From: Nitrososphaerota archaeon
GTDB taxonomy: Archaea > Thermoproteota > Bathyarchaeia > Bathyarchaeales > Bathycorpusculaceae
NCBI GenBank assembly: GCA_031256395.1
Contig: JAIRQQ010000033.1
Coordinates: 1-34,414, forward strand
Direction: 5' to 3'
Length of the DNA stretch: 34,414 bases
In this document: one piece after another, positions 3,706-34,414 of the stretch
Numbering within the stretch: position 1 is the stretch's first letter
How the letters are laid out: the number at the start of each line of letters is the position of its first letter
The notes under the pieces: generated by a model
What the model saw: only the letters and a program-made list of their open reading frames with translations
Told to the model about the DNA's origin: nothing
The model's database searches: none
Made by a program: the position numbers and the translations under genes

Positions 3706-4520
3706 CTGTTTAGATAGTTGACGCTGTATTCTTCGCCGTTAACCAGCACTTTTATGAGTTCTCGACGGATGTTTAGGATTTCGAGAACTTTTTGGGGCGG
3801 ATAGAGCATAAGAGGAGTTAAAATAGAGACCTCTGAGAAGGGATGAGGCGGAGTATAGGTAACTATGGCCAAGGTGGAATTGGTTAGGTGTTCATATTTT
3901 TTCATATCTAAATATTTGAGACCGCCCTTGCCTGCTAGATATACAACTGAGCCATAGGCACTAAACTGGGAAGCCACCCGCTCAGTTGTATCAACCCCCT
4001 CTGCCCCATAGGAGATGGAGAGATAAGTTTTGATACCCAACAAATCCCGCAACCAAAGTATCAACCTAAGGTTGAGCTCCCAAAGATAGGTATATCCCAA
4101 AAAAATCTCTTTTAAGGCATCTTTGTATTGGCTCCACATTGGATATTTGTGATAGACATGTTCGAGTTCAGACCAGCGCTCGCTCATCAAGTTAGTTTTA
4201 AGTTTAGCCGCCATAATCGTGCAGCCACTGGAGGCCTCAAGAGGCAGGGTAAGCCACCTCCAGCTGGTATCGGTGCCGATTTTGACGCGGTGTTGATAGC
4301 GATCGCTGTGACGACTCAGCGGATCGTAGGGACAAATATCCATAATGTTTGAATGGTACATACGGTAGAAAAATCCGGGGTAGGGCAGAAAAGTAGGCTG
4401 GTGACCACTTAAAATCAGTGCTCTATCCAGCGTTAAAACTTGATGATTGGCGGGTTGTGTCTGGGGTTGAGCACCACTAAGAGATGACAGGCCAGCCTTC
4501 TGCAGGATTACTCTATTCAA
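3702..4520 (-). CDS. WbqC-like family protein
   Basis: 272 residues from a TTG start. The WbqC hallmark HQPTFLPYPGFF lies at residues 40-51, followed by a WRWLTLPLE segment near 90 and an aromatic-rich helical region (YHKYPMWSQYKDALKEIF). WbqC-like proteins occur in surface-polysaccharide clusters and are thought to act in sugar modification or transfer; the exact reaction is not established. The gene is divergent from an AT3 acyltransferase, which supports a cell-surface glycan role. The first 30 residues are poorly conserved in style, so a later start is possible. Confidence 0.75.
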   Translation of the reverse strand: MNRVILQKAGLSSLSGAQPQTQPANHQVLTLDRALILSGHQPTFLPYPGFFYRMYHSNIMDICPYDPLSRHSDRYQHRVKIGTDTSWRWLTLPLEASSGCTIMAAKLKTNLMSERWSELEHVYHKYPMWSQYKDALKEIFLGYTYLWELNLRLILWLRDLLGIKTYLSISYGAEGVDTTERVASQFSAYGSVVYLAGKGGLKYLDMKKYEHLTNSTLAIVTYTPPHPFSEVSILTPLMLYPPQKVLEILNIRRELIKVLVNGEEYSVNYLNS

Positions 4521-4668
4521 AAAAAGCCCTTTCTTAATAAAAGCTCAGATGGCGCCACATATAAGCCTGCGCAATAACACATTGCAGCCACAAGGGGCAT
4601 AAAACAGATAATAGAACCTCACAAACAACTGCTAAAATCAATATTGATTTTTGTGGTTTAATAATAAA

Positions 4669-4677
4669 ACTATATAA
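4669..4677 (+). promoter_or_regulatory. TATA element of the AT3 acyltransferase gene
   Basis: CTATATAAC lies about 36 bases before the ATG at 4710. A start 25-26 bases downstream gives a leader of about 10 bases containing AGGTTA next to the start codon. Confidence 0.45.
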
Positions 4678-4709
4678 CATTAGGGTTTGTTTTTTGAATT
4701 TAGGTTAAG

Positions 4710-5801
4710 ATGGAGAGGCTTAATCAGATTAAACTAAGCAATGTCCATATTGATTTGCTTAAGACCGTAGCAATCATAGCGGCGATTATGGTTCATGTTG
4801 CAGGCCGATGGTCCATAAGTGGTCAAGAGTTAAATCAGCTAACACCAGTGGCAATGACAAGCTGGTCGGTAGTGCTTATCTATCAAAGTTTTGCAGTATT
4901 GGGTGTGCCTCTGTTTTTAATGGTGTCTGGGTTACTTTTGTTGCATCCTGAGAAAATCAAAGAAAACGAGACCCTTAGAGAGTTTTTCAAAAAACGTGTC
5001 GCTCGAATCGGTAAGCCTTTTTTATTTTGGACGGGCATTTATTTTGTCTGGGTGTTTTTAGTTCAAAACAGACCCTTTAGCTTAGGCGTTCTTGTGCAGG
5101 GCACCCTAAATGGAGCCTACACCCAGTTCTGGTATGTCTATGTGCTTTTTGGGCTCTACATTTTAACGCCTCTTCTGCGGGTAATCATGACCCATGCAAG
5201 CCAGACGCTTATCAAGTATTTTATGGCAATATGGTTCATCAGTGTGTCTATTTTGCCCTTTATAGGACCCATGTTTCCCTATCAGCTCAACAGCAATGTC
5301 TTCATTATGTCAGGTTATATAGGCTACTTTGTTTTAGGCATATACCTCTGCTCGGTACAGGTCCGTCGCAGAATAACAGGAGCATTGATGCTTCTGGGAA
5401 TCTCATTAACGGCCCTAGCCACATATGTACTAGCGGCTTCAGGTGCGGGAGAAGGCATGTATCTCTTCCAAGCATACCTTAGTCCTACAGTACTTTTTAC
5501 AGCTGTTATGGCGTTTCTACTCTTAAAAGATAAGACTTCAGCACCAGAACAAAAAACCAATCCGGCCAGCAGAGGGAATAAACTCTTAGAATTAGTTAGT
5601 GCCAACACATTTGGCATCTTTTTTGTTCATGTTATTGTGCTTGAAACTATCCAGCAGGGTTACTTGGGCTTTATGCTCAACCGTGAAATACTCAATCCCA
5701 TAATTGAGGTTCCGTTGCTTACGGTTATCACGCTGTTTGTTTCATTGGGTATAATTCTTGTGCTTAGAAAAATACCTGGGTTAGATAAGGTAGTCAACTA
5801 A
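4710..5801 (+). CDS. Acyltransferase family 3 (OafA-like) integral membrane protein
   Basis: 363 residues with about ten hydrophobic segments spread over the whole length. The N-terminal block NVHIDLLKTVAIIAAIMVHV carries the family's Asp (D15) and catalytic His (H29). AT3 enzymes O-acylate extracytoplasmic sugars such as O-antigen, peptidoglycan or exopolysaccharide, using acyl donors from the cytoplasm. The SGNH hydrolase gene follows in the same direction. In bacteria AT3 domains are often fused to an SGNH domain that completes acyl transfer, so a split AT3/SGNH pair is plausible. Confidence 0.85.
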   Translation: MERLNQIKLSNVHIDLLKTVAIIAAIMVHVAGRWSISGQELNQLTPVAMTSWSVVLIYQSFAVLGVPLFLMVSGLLLLHPEKIKENETLREFFKKRVARIGKPFLFWTGIYFVWVFLVQNRPFSLGVLVQGTLNGAYTQFWYVYVLFGLYILTPLLRVIMTHASQTLIKYFMAIWFISVSILPFIGPMFPYQLNSNVFIMSGYIGYFVLGIYLCSVQVRRRITGALMLLGISLTALATYVLAASGAGEGMYLFQAYLSPTVLFTAVMAFLLLKDKTSAPEQKTNPASRGNKLLELVSANTFGIFFVHVIVLETIQQGYLGFMLNREILNPIIEVPLLTVITLFVSLGIILVLRKIPGLDKVVN

Positions 5802-6653: not shown

Positions 6654-7946
6654 TTAGTTGGTGAGGATTTTTCCTTTTAGATATGTTTGAGAGGCATCAA
6701 CTATTTCAACTTGCAGAGTTTTGCCCAGCAACAGGGTGTTGCTTTGGATGACTATGGGTTTGTAGGCAAAGTTTCGGCTGATCCAAGTGTTGGGTATTTT
6801 GCCTTTTTCATCTACTAGTACTTCGCCGCTCCAGCCGATCCAGGTTTTGTTGCGTTGGGTGGAGATTTGTTTGGCTAGTTCGGCGGTGAGGGTGCTTCGG
6901 TGTTTGATTTCTTCTTTATCTACTAATCCTTCGCGTATGTGCCAGGCGGGGGTTTTTGGTCGGGCGAAGAATTTTGAGACGTTGATGATGTCGGGTTGGG
7001 TTTTTTTTAGGATGTTTAGGGTGTTGTTGAAGGCTTGGGTTGTTTCGCCTGGGAAGCCTACGATAATATCGGTTGCTAGGGTTAGGTTGGGGAATGTTTC
7101 TTTGAAGGTTTGGGTGATTGTTTGGAAGTCTTCTGCGGTGTAGAATCGGTTCATGGCGGCTAGGATGGTGTTGTCGCCGCTTTGGAGGGGTAGGTGTAGG
7201 AATTTAAAGATTCGGGGGTTTTTTAGTGCGTTGATGAGTTGGGGTTGTATGGGTGTGACTAGGTTGGGGGTCATCATGCCGATTCGGATGTAAAAGTTTC
7301 CGGGGATGGTTTGGATTGTGTGGAGTAGTTCTGTGAGGTTTGTGTTTATGTCTTGGCCGTAGCTGGCGGTGTCTTGGGAGGTTAGCCAGAATTCTTGGTA
7401 GCCTGTTTGATGGTCGGTTTGGATGCGTTGGGTGATTTGGGGTATGGTGTAGCTTTGGAGGTGGCCTCGGGCGTGTACGACACAGCAGTAGGAGCATTTT
7501 CCTAGGCATCCATTGTTTATGGGGATTATGCTGATGAGGGGGTTTGTTGGGAGTTTGGGTAGGGTGAGGGGGGGTTTTTCTTTGGGTGGTGTTAGGAGTA
7601 TGGGTTTTTGGTTTTGTAGGATTTGTTGGATTATGTTTGGGAGTTCTTTGCCGGTTGAGGGTCCTGTGGCGGCGTCGAAGTGGACTTCTTTGGTTAGGCG
7701 TTCGAGGCTGATTTTGGGTAGGCATCCGGTGAGGATGATTTTTTTGTTTTTGGGAGTTTTTTTTATGTCGCTTATGATACGGTTTTCTGTTGGGCCTTTG
7801 ACTGCGCAGGTGTTGTAGATTATGATGTCGGCTTCTGTTTCGTTTGTGCTGAGGGGGTAGCCTGCTTGTTTTAGACATCCTGCGATTGTTTCGGCGTCGG
7901 CGGTGTTGCTGGCGCAGCCATAGTTTTTTATGAAAACGGTGTGCAT
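6654..7946 (-). CDS. Archaeal MiaB/MtaB-type tRNA methylthiotransferase (e-MtaB/CDKAL1-like)
   Basis: 430 residues. The N-terminal UPF0004 domain carries three iron-sulfur cysteines (C11, C47, C75). The radical-SAM motif CLGKCSYC places the second cluster at C147, C151 and C154. A TRAM-like RNA-binding domain ends the protein (about 366-428). Archaeal members of this family convert t6A at tRNA position 37 to ms2t6A. That fits this window, which also encodes three KEOPS subunits that make t6A. The coding strand is strongly A/C-rich: 49 of 60 plus-strand bases at 7741-7800 are G or T. It is divergent from the RHH operon at 8149. Confidence 0.9.
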   Translation of the reverse strand: MHTVFIKNYGCASNTADAETIAGCLKQAGYPLSTNETEADIIIYNTCAVKGPTENRIISDIKKTPKNKKIILTGCLPKISLERLTKEVHFDAATGPSTGKELPNIIQQILQNQKPILLTPPKEKPPLTLPKLPTNPLISIIPINNGCLGKCSYCCVVHARGHLQSYTIPQITQRIQTDHQTGYQEFWLTSQDTASYGQDINTNLTELLHTIQTIPGNFYIRIGMMTPNLVTPIQPQLINALKNPRIFKFLHLPLQSGDNTILAAMNRFYTAEDFQTITQTFKETFPNLTLATDIIVGFPGETTQAFNNTLNILKKTQPDIINVSKFFARPKTPAWHIREGLVDKEEIKHRSTLTAELAKQISTQRNKTWIGWSGEVLVDEKGKIPNTWISRNFAYKPIVIQSNTLLLGKTLQVEIVDASQTYLKGKILTN

Positions 7947-8012
7947 TTGTTTTCTTGCTAGTTGCTACTTCTGGGCATAAAAATGTGTTGTGTGTTTGTC
8001 GGGAATTGACAG

Positions 8013-8100
8013 ATATGTGACATATGAATGTTTTTTTATTTATAAGGAATGTAACCAACATGTTATGTACATATTTGTCACATAATATGTAGAAGTATAA
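8013..8100 (+). promoter_or_regulatory. Palindrome-rich promoter/operator region of the RHH operon
   Basis: A 9-bp inverted repeat, TATGTGACA (8014-8022) and TGTCACATA (8076-8084), brackets two adjacent 8-bp palindromes: AACATGTT (8057-8064) and ATGTACAT (8065-8072). TATA-like elements lie at 8036-8044 (TTATTTATA) and 8094-8099 (AGTATA). RHH dimers bind short symmetric half-sites, so autoregulation by the 51-residue RHH protein encoded just downstream is likely. The region also lies between this operon and the divergent methylthiotransferase gene. The repeats are seen directly; their binding role is inferred. Confidence 0.5.
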
Positions 8101-8148
8101 GGGCCCAATAACGTTGTATAGCTGTAAGCCGCAGGGAAGAATAACCAC

Positions 8149-8304
8149 TTGAAACTAATCACTCTGTATCTACCTGAAACGTATATTAAAGCTTTGGATC
8201 AGCTGGTAGACGAAAGATTCTACCCCAACCGAGCCGAAGCTATCCGAGTAGCCATACGAGACCTAATCAGCGCAGAAGTCTGGAGGCGCAAAGGCGTTGA
8301 CTAA
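8149..8304 (+). CDS. Short ribbon-helix-helix DNA-binding protein (CdrS-like size)
   Basis: 51 residues from a TTG start. An N-terminal beta strand (MKLITLYLP) is followed by two helices with the RHH turn signature PNRAEAIRVAIRDLI. The protein is almost only the RHH fold, like the short CdrS regulators that precede ftsZ in halophilic archaea, but no ftsZ follows here. It probably dimerises and binds the palindromes upstream. Its last codons overlap the next gene by 8 bases, so the two are likely translationally coupled. It is a different subtype from the RHH pair near 31.3-32.1 kb. Confidence 0.8.
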   Translation: MKLITLYLPETYIKALDQLVDERFYPNRAEAIRVAIRDLISAEVWRRKGVD

Positions 8305-10734: not shown

Positions 10735-11295
10735 TTATTCGTAGAATATGAGGTTGGTTTCTTCGAGTAGGGTGTGCAGTTTTTCTACTGAGATATAGAC
10801 GTCTGCTTCTTTTTTGGCGCCTGTGCAGACGAGTTTGCCGCTGGCAAAGAGCAGGATTACTACTTTGGGGTCGGTCATGCGGTAGATTAGGCCGGGGAAT
10901 TGTTCGGGTTCATACATTGCATGACCTAGGGTGTAAGCGGCTTTTTCGAGGTCTATCATGCCGCCTAGGATGCCGGATGCTACGATGTTTTGGATTTTTA
11001 GTTCGGGTTTGCTTATGATTATTATGCCGCCTTTTTTGAGTTCTTTGATTACTTTTACGACGGCACGTTTGGCTTCTTTTTCTGATTTGGCGCCTGTGCA
11101 GACCATTTTGCCTGAGCTAAAGATCAGGGTGGCGGTTTTTGGGCGTTTTAGTCGGAAAACTAGGCCGGGGAATTGTTGGGGACGGTATTCTACTCCGGGG
11201 TAGCCTTTAACGACGGAGTTTAGATCCACTTTTTGGTTGAGCGTTGCGGACGCAACAACGTTTTCGATACTTATTGAAGCTTTAAGTTCAGGCAA
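10735..11295 (-). CDS. tbp: TATA-box binding protein (TBP)
   Basis: 186 residues in two imperfect direct repeats (about 6-88 and 98-180), each with the strand block QFPGLVFR or QFPGLIYR and a second block IFSSGKMVCTGAKSEKEA or LFASGKLVCTGAKKEADV. This is the TBP saddle that binds the TATA box and recruits TFB. Length is normal for archaea. Translation starts at a TTG with AGGAG seven bases upstream. The promoter carries a perfect 9-bp inverted repeat over the probable start site, so TBP expression may be repressed by a dedicated factor or by TBP itself. Confidence 0.97.
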   Translation of the reverse strand: MPELKASISIENVVASATLNQKVDLNSVVKGYPGVEYRPQQFPGLVFRLKRPKTATLIFSSGKMVCTGAKSEKEAKRAVVKVIKELKKGGIIIISKPELKIQNIVASGILGGMIDLEKAAYTLGHAMYEPEQFPGLIYRMTDPKVVILLFASGKLVCTGAKKEADVYISVEKLHTLLEETNLIFYE

Positions 11296-31202: not shown

Positions 31203-31292
31203 ATCGAAATAATTTTTTTAAATTTCAAACCCTACATGGTTTCATTGGACATACGACAAGAAGGTACCATGGGAGTGTGAAGAGTAAAAATA

Positions 31293-31478
31293 ATGAACGG
31301 AAAAAGAATTAAAAGAATTCTGCTGCATGTTCCATCAAATTTTTTAGAAGAATTTGACCGAGAAATCTCGGGAGTGTATGCAAGCAGAAATGAAGCTATC
31401 AGAGCAGGCATGACCCTTGTGCTAAAAGCTGAAAAGAGAAGACAAACACAAAAAAGAAGAACACACGAAAACACATAA
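31293..31478 (+). CDS. Ribbon-helix-helix protein, first of a related pair
   Basis: 61 residues. The strand RILLHVPSNFLEEFD is followed by the RHH helix pair with ASRNEAIRAGMTLVLK and a basic tail (KRRQTQKRR) that may add DNA contact. It shares VP-NFLE-FD and SR-EAIR with the next RHH protein (31817-32071), so the two are paralogs from a local duplication. It probably acts as a DNA-binding dimer, perhaps as operon repressor or centromere-binding protein of the ParB-like module downstream. Confidence 0.8.
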   Translation: MNGKRIKRILLHVPSNFLEEFDREISGVYASRNEAIRAGMTLVLKAEKRRQTQKRRTHENT

Positions 31479-31816
31479 CGACGATCGGGCACCTATTCAT
31501 TTTTGATTCAGCACAAGGATTAACGAGTTTGACCAGCGTTGTAAAATGGTTATGACAAACAGCAACCAGTCAAAGCAAAAGATTCTGCTCACCTTCACCA
31601 CCCCCAGTTTTTATTAGTTGTTAGCTAAAAGTGAAACAAGAAAGCCACATAACAAAAATGCATCGTTAATGGATCAGAATCGTTCGGCCGCAACAGCAAC
31701 GCTTCAGTCTACAGGCATATTTAATGGTATATTCAATGCATTATTACTAGTAGTATATGTGTTTATATCATTATTGTCACATGAATTATCAGATATTGTA
31801 TGATAGTGTGAGGAAA
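31479..31816. other. Spacer between the two RHH genes
   Basis: A plus-strand ORF at 31618-31803 (61 codons, TTG start) ends with a hydrophobic helix (IFNALLLVVYVFISLLS). It has no ribosome binding site and its 3' half covers the promoter of the next gene, so I treat it as doubtful. The segment 31761-31782 holds a TATA-like GTTTATATC and TTGTCACAT, the 9-mer also found in the 8.0-kb RHH promoter. Confidence 0.3.
31761..31782 (+). promoter_or_regulatory. Promoter and shared TTGTCACAT element of the RHH-TFB-ParB operon
   Basis: TATA-like GTTTATATC (31761-31769) is followed by TTGTCACAT at 31774-31782, between it and the predicted start near 31791. The same nine bases occur at 8075-8083 before the other RHH operon. 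A flanking TATCAT (31766-31771) and ATGATA further downstream add loose symmetry. Confidence 0.4.
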
Positions 31817-32071
31817 TTGAAGAATAAACAAAAAACTCAGGATTTGTCAAAAATATGGCTACTTGTTCCCAAGAATTTTCTAGAACAATTCGACACCGCA
31901 ACCAAAAACACCCACACCTCACGCAGTGAAGCAATCCGATACGCAATGCAACTCACATTCAAAGAAATAAAACAACAAAAAACCCACACTCCAAAAACCC
32001 AACCACTCAGCTCACAACCAAACACAACCCTAACCACCACCCAGCTAAAAATACGGAGAACACCCACATGA
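31817..32071 (+). CDS. Ribbon-helix-helix protein, second of the pair
   Basis: 84 residues from the TTG at 31817 with GAGG just upstream; an ATG at 31781 in frame would add 12 residues and start near the predicted transcription start. The RHH fold is KIWLLVPKNFLEQFD then TSRSEAIRYAMQLTFKEIKQQ, followed by a Thr/Gln/Pro-rich tail. It is paralogous to the RHH at 31293. Its stop overlaps the next ATG (ATGA), the first link of the coupled chain leading to the TFB and ParB-like genes. Confidence 0.7.
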   Translation: MKNKQKTQDLSKIWLLVPKNFLEQFDTATKNTHTSRSEAIRYAMQLTFKEIKQQKTHTPKTQPLSSQPNTTLTTTQLKIRRTPT

Positions 32072-32190
32072 AACTCCAAACTCAAAACAAAAACCAACCC
32101 AAAACCACAGTCCAACCCGCAAGCCAAAGAATCACAACAACTACACAGTCACCATTAACACACCACCCAAAGGAGATCTATTATGAGTGA
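32068..32190 (+). CDS. 40-residue ORF bridging the RHH and TFB genes
   Basis: Starts at an ATG overlapping the RHH stop and ends 8 bases inside the TFB gene. The product is a low-complexity Gln/Thr/Pro peptide (MKLQTQNKNQPKTTVQPASQ at its start). It has no visible fold. It may serve only to carry ribosomes to the TFB start (leader-type coupling) or may be chance. Confidence 0.35.
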   Translation: MKLQTQNKNQPKTTVQPASQRITTTTQSPLTHHPKEIYYE

Positions 32191-33070
32191 AAGTGAAAAA
32201 TGCCCCGAATGCAACAACAAAAACATCAGAGACGATAATGCAAACGGGGAAAGAGTATGCATGACTTGTGGGTTGGTATTGGGTAGCGCTGAATTTGCAC
32301 CACCCGCAGACCGCATCCCCAAAACAGACCCCGCCAACCCCATAGTATTCACCAGCACTTCTGTGGGTACAGAGATTGAATCAGCACACCGTATCGAACT
32401 CAACACTGCCCATGATATCAATCGTGTAATCCAAAAATTAGAGTTACCCCGCCACTTAGAGCCGCTGGCTATTAATTATGTACGAAAACTCCGCCACCAA
32501 ATGAAACAACAAAACAATCACAAAATCCGCTTAACACGAACTGAACTAACCACTTGGTCAATTTGGACGGCTATAAAACGAACCAACTATCCTCTGAGTG
32601 CAGATCAATACATAAAAAAACTTCAACCCCTCCTCAAAGTCAAGAACCTGATGAAAATTGAGCAACGTGCAGGTCAGTTTATAAAAAATGAAAACCGCAT
32701 CCCCGATGCCTCCCTTGTAGTGGGGCATATTAATCAAATAGCAACCAAACTCGAAAATAACCATCTTATCAACAACACCTATGCAAATAAAATCAGCAGT
32801 TATGCAATTCAAATTGTTCAAGCAAACCCGGGCAGTATAACGAACCGAAAAGCAAACCTTGTTGCCGCTTCAGCACTCCTAGCGGCGGATAACTTGCTGG
32901 CAAATCAACTGCGTTTAAAATCTCTGGCCCAAGCAGCAAGCACTGGAACGGGCAGGTTATCAAAACTATCAGAAACCTACAGGTATTACGCGCCCGCCCT
33001 GCCCAAAGAGTGGGCCGCTATCAAATTTAGCATCTATCTCTTTGAGAGGAGTGTCTATGCTACAACTTAG
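32183..33070 (+). CDS. tfb: Divergent transcription initiation factor B (TFB/TFIIB paralog)
   Basis: 295 residues, near normal TFB length. The zinc ribbon uses C7, C10, C26 and C29 (CPEC, CMTC). A reader/linker region (35-75) lacks the usual strong sequence. Two cyclin-type repeats follow (about 78-175 and 180-290). The second ends NLVAASALLAADNLLANQ and SKLSETYRYYAP, like TFB. The first is weakly conserved. TFB bridges TBP and RNA polymerase. The divergence and the operon with a ParB-like gene suggest a specialised TFB rather than the housekeeping one. GGAG lies seven bases upstream; overlaps the next gene by 14 bases. Confidence 0.85.
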   Translation: MSESEKCPECNNKNIRDDNANGERVCMTCGLVLGSAEFAPPADRIPKTDPANPIVFTSTSVGTEIESAHRIELNTAHDINRVIQKLELPRHLEPLAINYVRKLRHQMKQQNNHKIRLTRTELTTWSIWTAIKRTNYPLSADQYIKKLQPLLKVKNLMKIEQRAGQFIKNENRIPDASLVVGHINQIATKLENNHLINNTYANKISSYAIQIVQANPGSITNRKANLVAASALLAADNLLANQLRLKSLAQAASTGTGRLSKLSETYRYYAPALPKEWAAIKFSIYLFERSVYATT

Positions 33071-34181
33071 AATAGACCAAATTCGGGCAAACCCGTGGAA
33101 CTGTAACGTTTTAGGGGCTCAAGAAAAGCAGAAGCTCAAACAACGAATGAGCGAAGACGGCTCCGAAAAGACACCTCCGGTTGTAGTGCGAAAAATACAA
33201 GACAGCTATGAATTGGTAGATGGGGAACAGCGGTGGACGATTGCAAAAGAACTCAACTGGGAAACCCTAAACGCCCTTGAGCGCGAAGCTGATGATATAC
33301 AAACAAGAACACTCTGTGTTAGCTATAATCGTTGGCGAGGACACCTAAATTGGTTTAAACTCTACGACATAGTAAAAAAAGATCAAGAGGAAGGGATAGA
33401 TCTATGGGAAGCTTATCAAAATGCACTTTCAAATAAAGAGTTGGAGTGGGTGCTCTCTCTTGGGAATTTAGTTTTTGAGGCACGACTAACATTGGAAGAG
33501 GCCCTAAAAAAATATCCTGAAATTACCCTAGAACAGCTGTATTTGCTTTCTCTGTTTCCGGCTTCTCAACAAGAGAGTTTAGTAGAAAAATTTAAAACAC
33601 CAGTAGCATCCCAAGCGCTACTGCAGATTTTAAACCCCCTGCTGGCAAAAAATCCTGCATCAACCTATTGTAATCAAAACCTAAAGTACCCCCCAGAAAA
33701 AGCTACCAACCCGCTATTCTCAGAGCTAACCACTCAGGGATTAGATGCACACACAAACCAAACGTATAATGTACAGGCAAACCTACCTGCGAATTTGAGA
33801 TCCAACAATAGAGGGGAGCTAAACTCAAATCACGCCTTAGCGAAAATAGACCCAGATGTAGAGCAGACCTCAAGTGGAGCAGAGGCAGAGTGGCAACAGG
33901 CTAAACTAATAGAGCAGAGTTATGATTGTGAATGTGGTCAACATTATCGGGTTAATTTTAAGAATGACACAGTTGTTATACAGAAACAAAATTTGTTGTT
34001 TGAGCATATAAATCTCAAACCGCGGGTGTTTCAGGTGTATTGTAGGAAATGTGCTTCGGAGCAGGAATTTATTATAGACTATGCTACAGAAGAGACCAAA
34101 CAGGTTTTCTGCAGGCGATGTAGACCCCCAAGAGAGGGTATTTTAGATGCTGACACCCGAGAAGTTACCTGGATCATCTAG
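33057..34181 (+). CDS. ParB-N domain protein with C-terminal zinc-ribbon-like region
   Basis: 374 residues from the ATG at 33057 (GGAG five bases upstream). Residues 1-90 form a ParB/Srx N domain: IDQIRANPWN, PPVVVRKI, and DGEQRWTIAKEL (55-66), the Box II equivalent of GERR. A helical region (95-200) is followed by a Pro/Asn-rich linker (200-285). The end holds C291-x-C293, C329-x2-C332 and C352-x2-C355, probably a zinc-binding ribbon. ParB-N folds bind CTP in chromosome partition or act as nucleases. No ParA is visible in the window. It overlaps TFB and the next ORF. Confidence 0.8.
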   Translation: MLQLRIDQIRANPWNCNVLGAQEKQKLKQRMSEDGSEKTPPVVVRKIQDSYELVDGEQRWTIAKELNWETLNALEREADDIQTRTLCVSYNRWRGHLNWFKLYDIVKKDQEEGIDLWEAYQNALSNKELEWVLSLGNLVFEARLTLEEALKKYPEITLEQLYLLSLFPASQQESLVEKFKTPVASQALLQILNPLLAKNPASTYCNQNLKYPPEKATNPLFSELTTQGLDAHTNQTYNVQANLPANLRSNNRGELNSNHALAKIDPDVEQTSSGAEAEWQQAKLIEQSYDCECGQHYRVNFKNDTVVIQKQNLLFEHINLKPRVFQVYCRKCASEQEFIIDYATEETKQVFCRRCRPPREGILDADTREVTWII

Positions 34182-34389
34182 CAGGCTGGGCAGGCGAGAA
34201 AAAAGGCTACTTTTGCTTATGCTACACAGTGATGAACCTCCGGGGAAACCCAATCCCATTTGGTTTGATGTCTACAAAGAATTTGAAATAAATTATAGAG
34301 AGTGTTCACCTAAAGATATACATCATTTGATTTTGCCATTGTTGAAAAATTTCAGGCATAGTCAAAGCACACCACAAACGAATAGTTAA
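34147..34389 (+). CDS. Small hypothetical protein ending the RHH-TFB-ParB operon
   Basis: 80 residues from an ATG 35 bases inside the ParB-like gene. The sequence begins MLTPEKLPGSSSRLGRREKR and continues with a helical, possibly winged-helix-like segment (KRLLLLMLHSD, PIWFDVYKEFEINY, SPKDIHHLILPLLKNF). No family recognised. The deep overlap suggests translational coupling to the ParB-like gene. It ends 25 bases before the window edge, so what follows is unknown. Confidence 0.6.
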   Translation: MLTPEKLPGSSSRLGRREKRLLLLMLHSDEPPGKPNPIWFDVYKEFEINYRECSPKDIHHLILPLLKNFRHSQSTPQTNS

Positions 34390-34414
34390 ATCCACCATAA
34401 CAGAACTCTTAGAC

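Follow-up and report, generated by a model that had tools for sequence, protein, structure and literature searches.

It is generally assumed that mobile elements of archaea rely on the TATA-binding protein (TBP) and the transcription factor B (TFB) of their host. Haloarchaea have multiple and plasmid-borne sets of TBP and TFB, in which extra genes on mobile replicons can define promoter subsets, but these sets belong to another lineage and are not tied to ParB or to a module of integrase and type IV secretion genes. The integrative conjugative elements (ICEs) of Thaumarchaeota all encode TFIIB, in most cases directly upstream of ParB and probably cotranscribed with it (Krupovic et al., 2019; PMC6563490); this coupling to ParB was considered specific to thaumarchaeal ICEs, and TBP is not mentioned in that paper. 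The divergent paralogue TFB3 governs DNA-transfer genes in Sulfolobales (Feng et al., 2018, as cited in PMC9905601). TFB3 is chromosomal and has no coupling to ParB. In this study, a TFB–ParB operon was analyzed at the end of a 34,414-nucleotide stretch of DNA from a bathyarchaeal genome (contig JAIRQQ010000033.1 of assembly GCA_031256395.1; the whole stretch is referred to as the window). Comparison with related genomes suggests, with a probability somewhat short of even, that ICEs of this group carry a complete private pair of TBP and TFB that reads its own class of promoters and redirects host RNA polymerase to the conjugation genes, with ParB as a repressor or timer.

The window corresponds to contig C88 in the assembly (135 contigs, 90% complete) of a Candidatus Bathycorpusculum genome (G000); this genus belongs to the termite-gut Bathyarchaeia and is covered in the literature on archaea from arthropod guts (PMC10684969). 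Those relatives of the TFB that bear names come mostly from metagenome-assembled genomes of the same genus. The operon, on the forward strand, consists of a promoter-like site, two genes for short ribbon–helix–helix (RHH)-like proteins, the divergent TFB gene (295 amino acids, 32183–33070), the ParB gene (374 amino acids, 33057–34181) and an interrupted third gene. The 3′ end of the TFB gene and the 5′ end of the ParB gene share 14 bp, and the contig ends at 34414, 233 bp past ParB. Gene starts were called by a script in host and element alike, and the start codons of the TFB genes are frequently TTG or GTG.

Among the relatives, TFB lies immediately upstream of ParB at 22 loci in 15 genomes, and a gene for a protein of about 205 amino acids comes next after ParB at 19 of these 22 loci, two of the remaining three being cut by contig ends. 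This ParB occurs in 13 of the 32 genomes of the genus with up to four copies per genome, and part of a second element copy in the genome of the window lies on contig C79. Pieces of ParB that lack TFB (L057, L068 and L069) all start at contig ends, and away from contig ends the co-occurrence of the two genes in relatives has no exception. In G422, from another family of the same order, the integrase, TFB, ParB and third gene are found together, and in G445, a Nitrososphaeria-like genome from another class, an overlapping TFB–ParB pair lies near a relative of the large membrane protein of the element; a scan of IMG/VR with the TFB gave no relatives. The earlier note on this DNA held that the operon could be a chance arrangement if its neighbours differed in all relatives. 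The TFB–ParB order is kept in 22 loci, which rules out chance, and this conservation shows that TFB, ParB and usually the third gene are inherited as a unit. The wider co-occurrence that the note suggested, of TFB, ParB and RHH, holds for the first two, whereas recognisable RHH genes were found in the closest relatives and G011 only. The pair of which the note knew no description is not new, because it was described in thaumarchaeal ICEs; its occurrence in Bathyarchaeia and the third gene extend that work (PMC6563490). Both groups of elements have VirB4, VirB6, pilins, a prepilin peptidase and TFIIB directly upstream of ParB, but the bathyarchaeal elements differ in their host, the conserved third gene, the element-borne TBP and the conserved gene order.

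In relatives, a tyrosine integrase gene (PF00589) follows a tRNA gene (Ser, Thr, Asn, Glu or Asp). On the opposite side of the operon lie genes for a type IV secretion system (T4SS) pilin (PF18895), a membrane protein of 780 amino acids, a prepilin peptidase and a PrgI-like protein, as well as a VirB4/TraG-type ATPase, Dam and N6/N4 methylases and ArdA. Because the operon in these relatives is flanked by a tRNA-linked integrase on one side and by type IV secretion genes on the other, it is, on gene content, almost certainly part of an ICE of Bathyarchaeia, in agreement with the integrated-element origin that the earlier note had considered. On the contig of the window itself, neither an integrase nor conjugation genes of the element are visible. 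No convincing right-hand attachment repeats were found within the contigs for four tRNA-linked elements, since the elements are longer than their contigs.

In the element of genome G021, the genes for VirB4 and the prepilin peptidase flank a TBP gene (PF00352, E 1e-37), and in other genomes TBP relatives of about 54–76% identity lie beside VirB4, the peptidase or neighbouring element genes. Host TBPs share just 33–39% identity with the G021 element TBP. A substantial element-type TBP is present in 9 of the 13 genus genomes with TFB–ParB and in 2 of the 19 without it (Fisher p = 0.0016, only a guide because the genomes are related); short fragments in G014 and G039 were left out of this count. 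A description of TBP on an archaeal ICE was not found in the open-licence literature. As a separate observation, the window itself contains a host TBP gene at 10735–11295 on the reverse strand, with 36% identity to the element TBP, and a second host TBP lies on contig C29.

Two promoter signals were distinguished. Ahead of the TFB operons lies an inverted repeat (GAAA..TTTC) adjoining a TATA-like box. A strict pattern of this repeat finds nine sites in about 450 kb, every one at a TFB operon, and a matrix adds the window, L039, L050 and, weakly, L040; matrix sites scoring above 13 in 468 kb are nearly all ahead of TFB operons. The repeat was thus rejected as an element-wide motif, as it marks TFB operons only. 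In the window, the promoter-like site (31205–31231, forward strand) consists of a GAAATAA–T-rich inverted-repeat half running into a TTTTTTTAAA box and scores 16.0 with the matrix from the TFB-operon promoters of relatives. The second signal, a [T/C]TTTTAA box, was picked as a pattern after inspection of element promoters; 31 of the 39 TBP and secretion-gene promoters contain it, versus 9 of 86 host promoters, which is the chance level as judged by shuffling (9.2 expected). By family, it is present in 15 of 17 TBP promoters, 8/8 for family c417, 6/6 for c9 and 2/3 for c24, and it also occurs within the operon promoters of the window and L039. Compared with known ICEs, a divergent TBP on Bathycorpusculum elements together with a shared promoter box appears to be new. 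Both the TBP of sister elements and the shared box lend support to the promoter-specific initiation factor that the earlier note envisaged, whereas recognition of the box by the element factors is putative.

The zinc ribbon of the TFB is recognised by Pfam (PF08271, 33.9 bits; cut-off 29) and all four of its Cys residues are invariant, while cyclin repeats were not detected by Pfam sequence profiles. An AlphaFold2 model built with 21 homologues (mean predicted local distance difference test score 79) shows a ribbon together with two domains of five helices each. Its top Foldseek matches are TFIIB in initiation complexes, and its target-normalised TM-score with the Pyrococcus TFB core (1d3u_B) is 0.69. 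Two cyclin-fold repeats are therefore predicted, as in archaeal TFB (TFIIB), in keeping with the divergent TFB originally reported. Two canonical TFBs, with both cyclin repeats well above the Pfam cut-off, are encoded elsewhere in the genome; the window TFB is thus a third, divergent paralogue and not the sole TFB, a case in which the note would have regarded the operon as accidental. A housekeeping TFB is ruled out by the same two genes. Genome G070 has an element contig on which the divergent TFB is accompanied by another TFB-like gene (L059:528–1475); judged by eye, the repeats of this additional gene appear canonical.

The ParB protein has, as the earlier note described, a ParB_N domain (PF02195, 33.5 bits; cut-off 26.3) and a six-Cys C-terminal region; the six Cys residues (C291, C293, C329, C332, C352 and C355) are nearly invariant. 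Its AlphaFold2 model comprises an N-terminal domain of the CTP-binding type, a helix–turn–helix (HTH) domain, a long disordered linker and a beta-rich six-Cys C-terminal domain, the linker and six-Cys domain replacing the usual ParB C-terminal dimerisation domain. In a Foldseek search, the model matched ParB, Noc and KorB over about 200 residues; the match of the N-terminal and HTH domains to pNOB8-like ParB is weaker. KorB of plasmid RK2 (8qa9, TMt 0.66) is a ParB-fold transcriptional repressor on a conjugative plasmid; it is bacterial, with another C-terminal domain, and acts against sigma-70 promoters. A search of PLSDB with the ParB gave only weak bacterial ParB matches, none at 80% query coverage, and no ParA was found among the element open reading frames (ORFs) scanned with Pfam, the elements being incomplete.

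These features favour a mechanism to which we give about an even chance. The element TFB would act with the element TBP if there is one, or else with a host TBP, and would recruit host RNA polymerase to element promoters with the [T/C]TTTTAA box, so that the secretion, TBP and TFB operons would be switched on as a batch, much as by a phage-encoded sigma factor. ParB and the RHH-like proteins from the same operon would bind element DNA, the inverted repeat of the operon promoter among it, and would repress or time the switch in the manner of KorB, a plasmid repressor of the ParB type; transcription, maintenance and transfer would thereby be coupled. If this is true, the element would replace both core-promoter factors and would parallel, in archaea, the sigma factors encoded by phages; an ICE that brings both factors and a shared box for its conjugation operons would open orthogonal transcription by an archaeal mobile element to direct tests. 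The recurrence of TFB with ParB on the ICEs of two archaeal classes would find an explanation as well, the coupling once thought to be specific to Thaumarchaeota now being extended to Bathyarchaeia.

Several observations weigh against this interpretation. No element TBP was found by search in the genome of the window, a fragmented, 90%-complete assembly, and none in the thaumarchaeal relative G445, which has a single TBP. The [T/C]TTTTAA box is absent from all five PrgI promoters, and since the promoters compared are homologous copies, the independent evidence for the box amounts to four gene families and not 39 sites. In addition, alignment shows the ribbon–core linker of the element TFB to be about 45 residues shorter than in both host TFBs and to lack their WRLRKWQ segment, which we take to be the B-linker. 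The full-length B-reader/B-linker of archaeal TFB is thus missing from the element TFB, and this loss suggests that the protein may not open promoters alone.

The shortened linker makes a TFB3-like trans-activator the closest rival: like TFB3 of Sulfolobus, the TFB would lack part of the initiation machinery and would work with a host TFB as a regulator, not as a full initiation factor, mainly on its own operon. The domain loss of the Sulfolobales TFB3 differs from that of the element TFB. The restriction of the specific inverted-repeat promoter to the TFB operon itself would suit such a role, and there is a precedent in the TFB paralogue that activates the DNA-transfer (Ced) genes in Sulfolobales, according to the passage of PMC9905601 in which that work is cited. 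However, two complete cyclin-fold domains are predicted, and the linked element TBPs and a box common to several unrelated element operons suggest a broader use, which leaves this explanation rather unlikely, at roughly one chance in four. Less probable still is a plain maintenance module, in which ParB would partition the element and the TFB would just secure expression of the partition genes in a new host, with no element-wide class of promoters. The ParB_N and HTH domains and the TFB–ParB gene overlap, seen in all lineages including G445, would fit it, but the lack of ParA among the scanned ORFs and the departure of the ParB C-terminal domain from the usual dimerisation domain speak against it, and the TBP gene and the shared box would be left unexplained.

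A further explanation concerns the window copy only, which might be an immobile, decaying or domesticated remnant, vertically kept at one site and no longer serving conjugation. This copy occupies the same non-tRNA site, beside an MGMT-like gene, as in G013 and G009, whereas in G038, G034, G031 and G015 the MGMT-like gene is followed by other genes and the element is absent there. Its TFB divergence from these two relatives (80% and 71% identity) parallels that of the neighbouring MGMT-like host gene (81% and 70%), no integrase is present on its left flank within the contig, and its third gene carries an insertion sequence. On the other hand, the ratios of nonsynonymous to synonymous substitution versus G013 are 0.13 for both TFB and ParB, in G013 and G009 the third gene at this site is still intact and the pilin operon is retained, and the right end of the window copy falls outside the assembly. 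The search for VirB4 in the genome of the window (none at E 1e-5) shows little given the fragmented assembly. From these comparisons, the window copy looks vertically inherited and under purifying selection, with a third gene now broken by the insertion sequence; that it is a remnant in the above sense is plausible, if a little less probable than the contrary.

The short genes at the start of the operon were described in the earlier note as two paralogous RHH genes, and their paralogy is borne out by 42% mutual identity across 52 residues, while the RHH label is only pattern-based. Gene 1 (61 amino acids, 31293–31478, forward strand) has no Pfam match; it is 86% identical to the G013 copy, with related copies in G009 and G011. 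Gene 2 (104 amino acids, 31757–32071, forward strand; the true start is probably further downstream) scores 13.9 bits against RHH_1, below the cut-off of 20.5, so that the RHH identity of both proteins rests at the level of sequence pattern and a sub-threshold match. In other relatives, the first ORF of the operon looks by eye like a degenerate RHH form. In many elements (L042 and L048–L053), the stop codon of this short leader overlaps the start of the TFB gene, an arrangement suggestive of translational coupling, and in G011 the reading frame of RHH-like gene 2 itself extends into the TFB start. In the window, a low-complexity 40-codon ORF (32068–32190, forward strand) bridges gene 2 and TFB. 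Its best matches are marginal (E 0.001) and it spans AAAGGAG, the ribosome-binding site ahead of the TFB ATG; judged by these features, it is not the independent gene that had been listed, and may at most be a translational-coupling leader.

The 80-residue ORF after ParB (34147–34389, forward strand) proved likewise not to be a gene of its own. Its initial 50 or so codons (34147–34297) match the protein of about 205 amino acids in relatives and the match ends at 34297, while the next 117 bp (34298–34414, no strand assigned) share 97–100% identity with the ends of eight further contigs from this assembly (C22, C23, C53, C56, C59, C66, C108 and C115). The third gene has therefore been interrupted by an insertion sequence at 34297/34298, which rules out a genuine 80-residue gene, and the multicopy nature of this insertion sequence accounts for the assembly break at 34414. 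The same insertion sequence coincides with many contig breaks in this genome. Neither Pfam nor the solved structures gave a credible match for the third protein, which by eye might be of the winged-helix type.

The elements also carry other cargo. The G021 element (L074) encodes an ArdA antirestriction protein, a Dam-type methylase and an N6/N4 DNA methylase (at 285–950, 4455–4853 and 7146–8153), which suggests counter-defence during transfer. A two-gene cargo at L069:1954–3671 and L049:5165–6885 resembles, by eye, an AbiE-type toxin–antitoxin system (nucleotidyltransferase and regulator). Finally, an 865-residue protein of LRR-Roc-COR architecture (ROCO-type GTPase) is encoded in the G038 element between the pilin genes and TFB–ParB (L047:4618–7215), an unusual cargo for an archaeal ICE.

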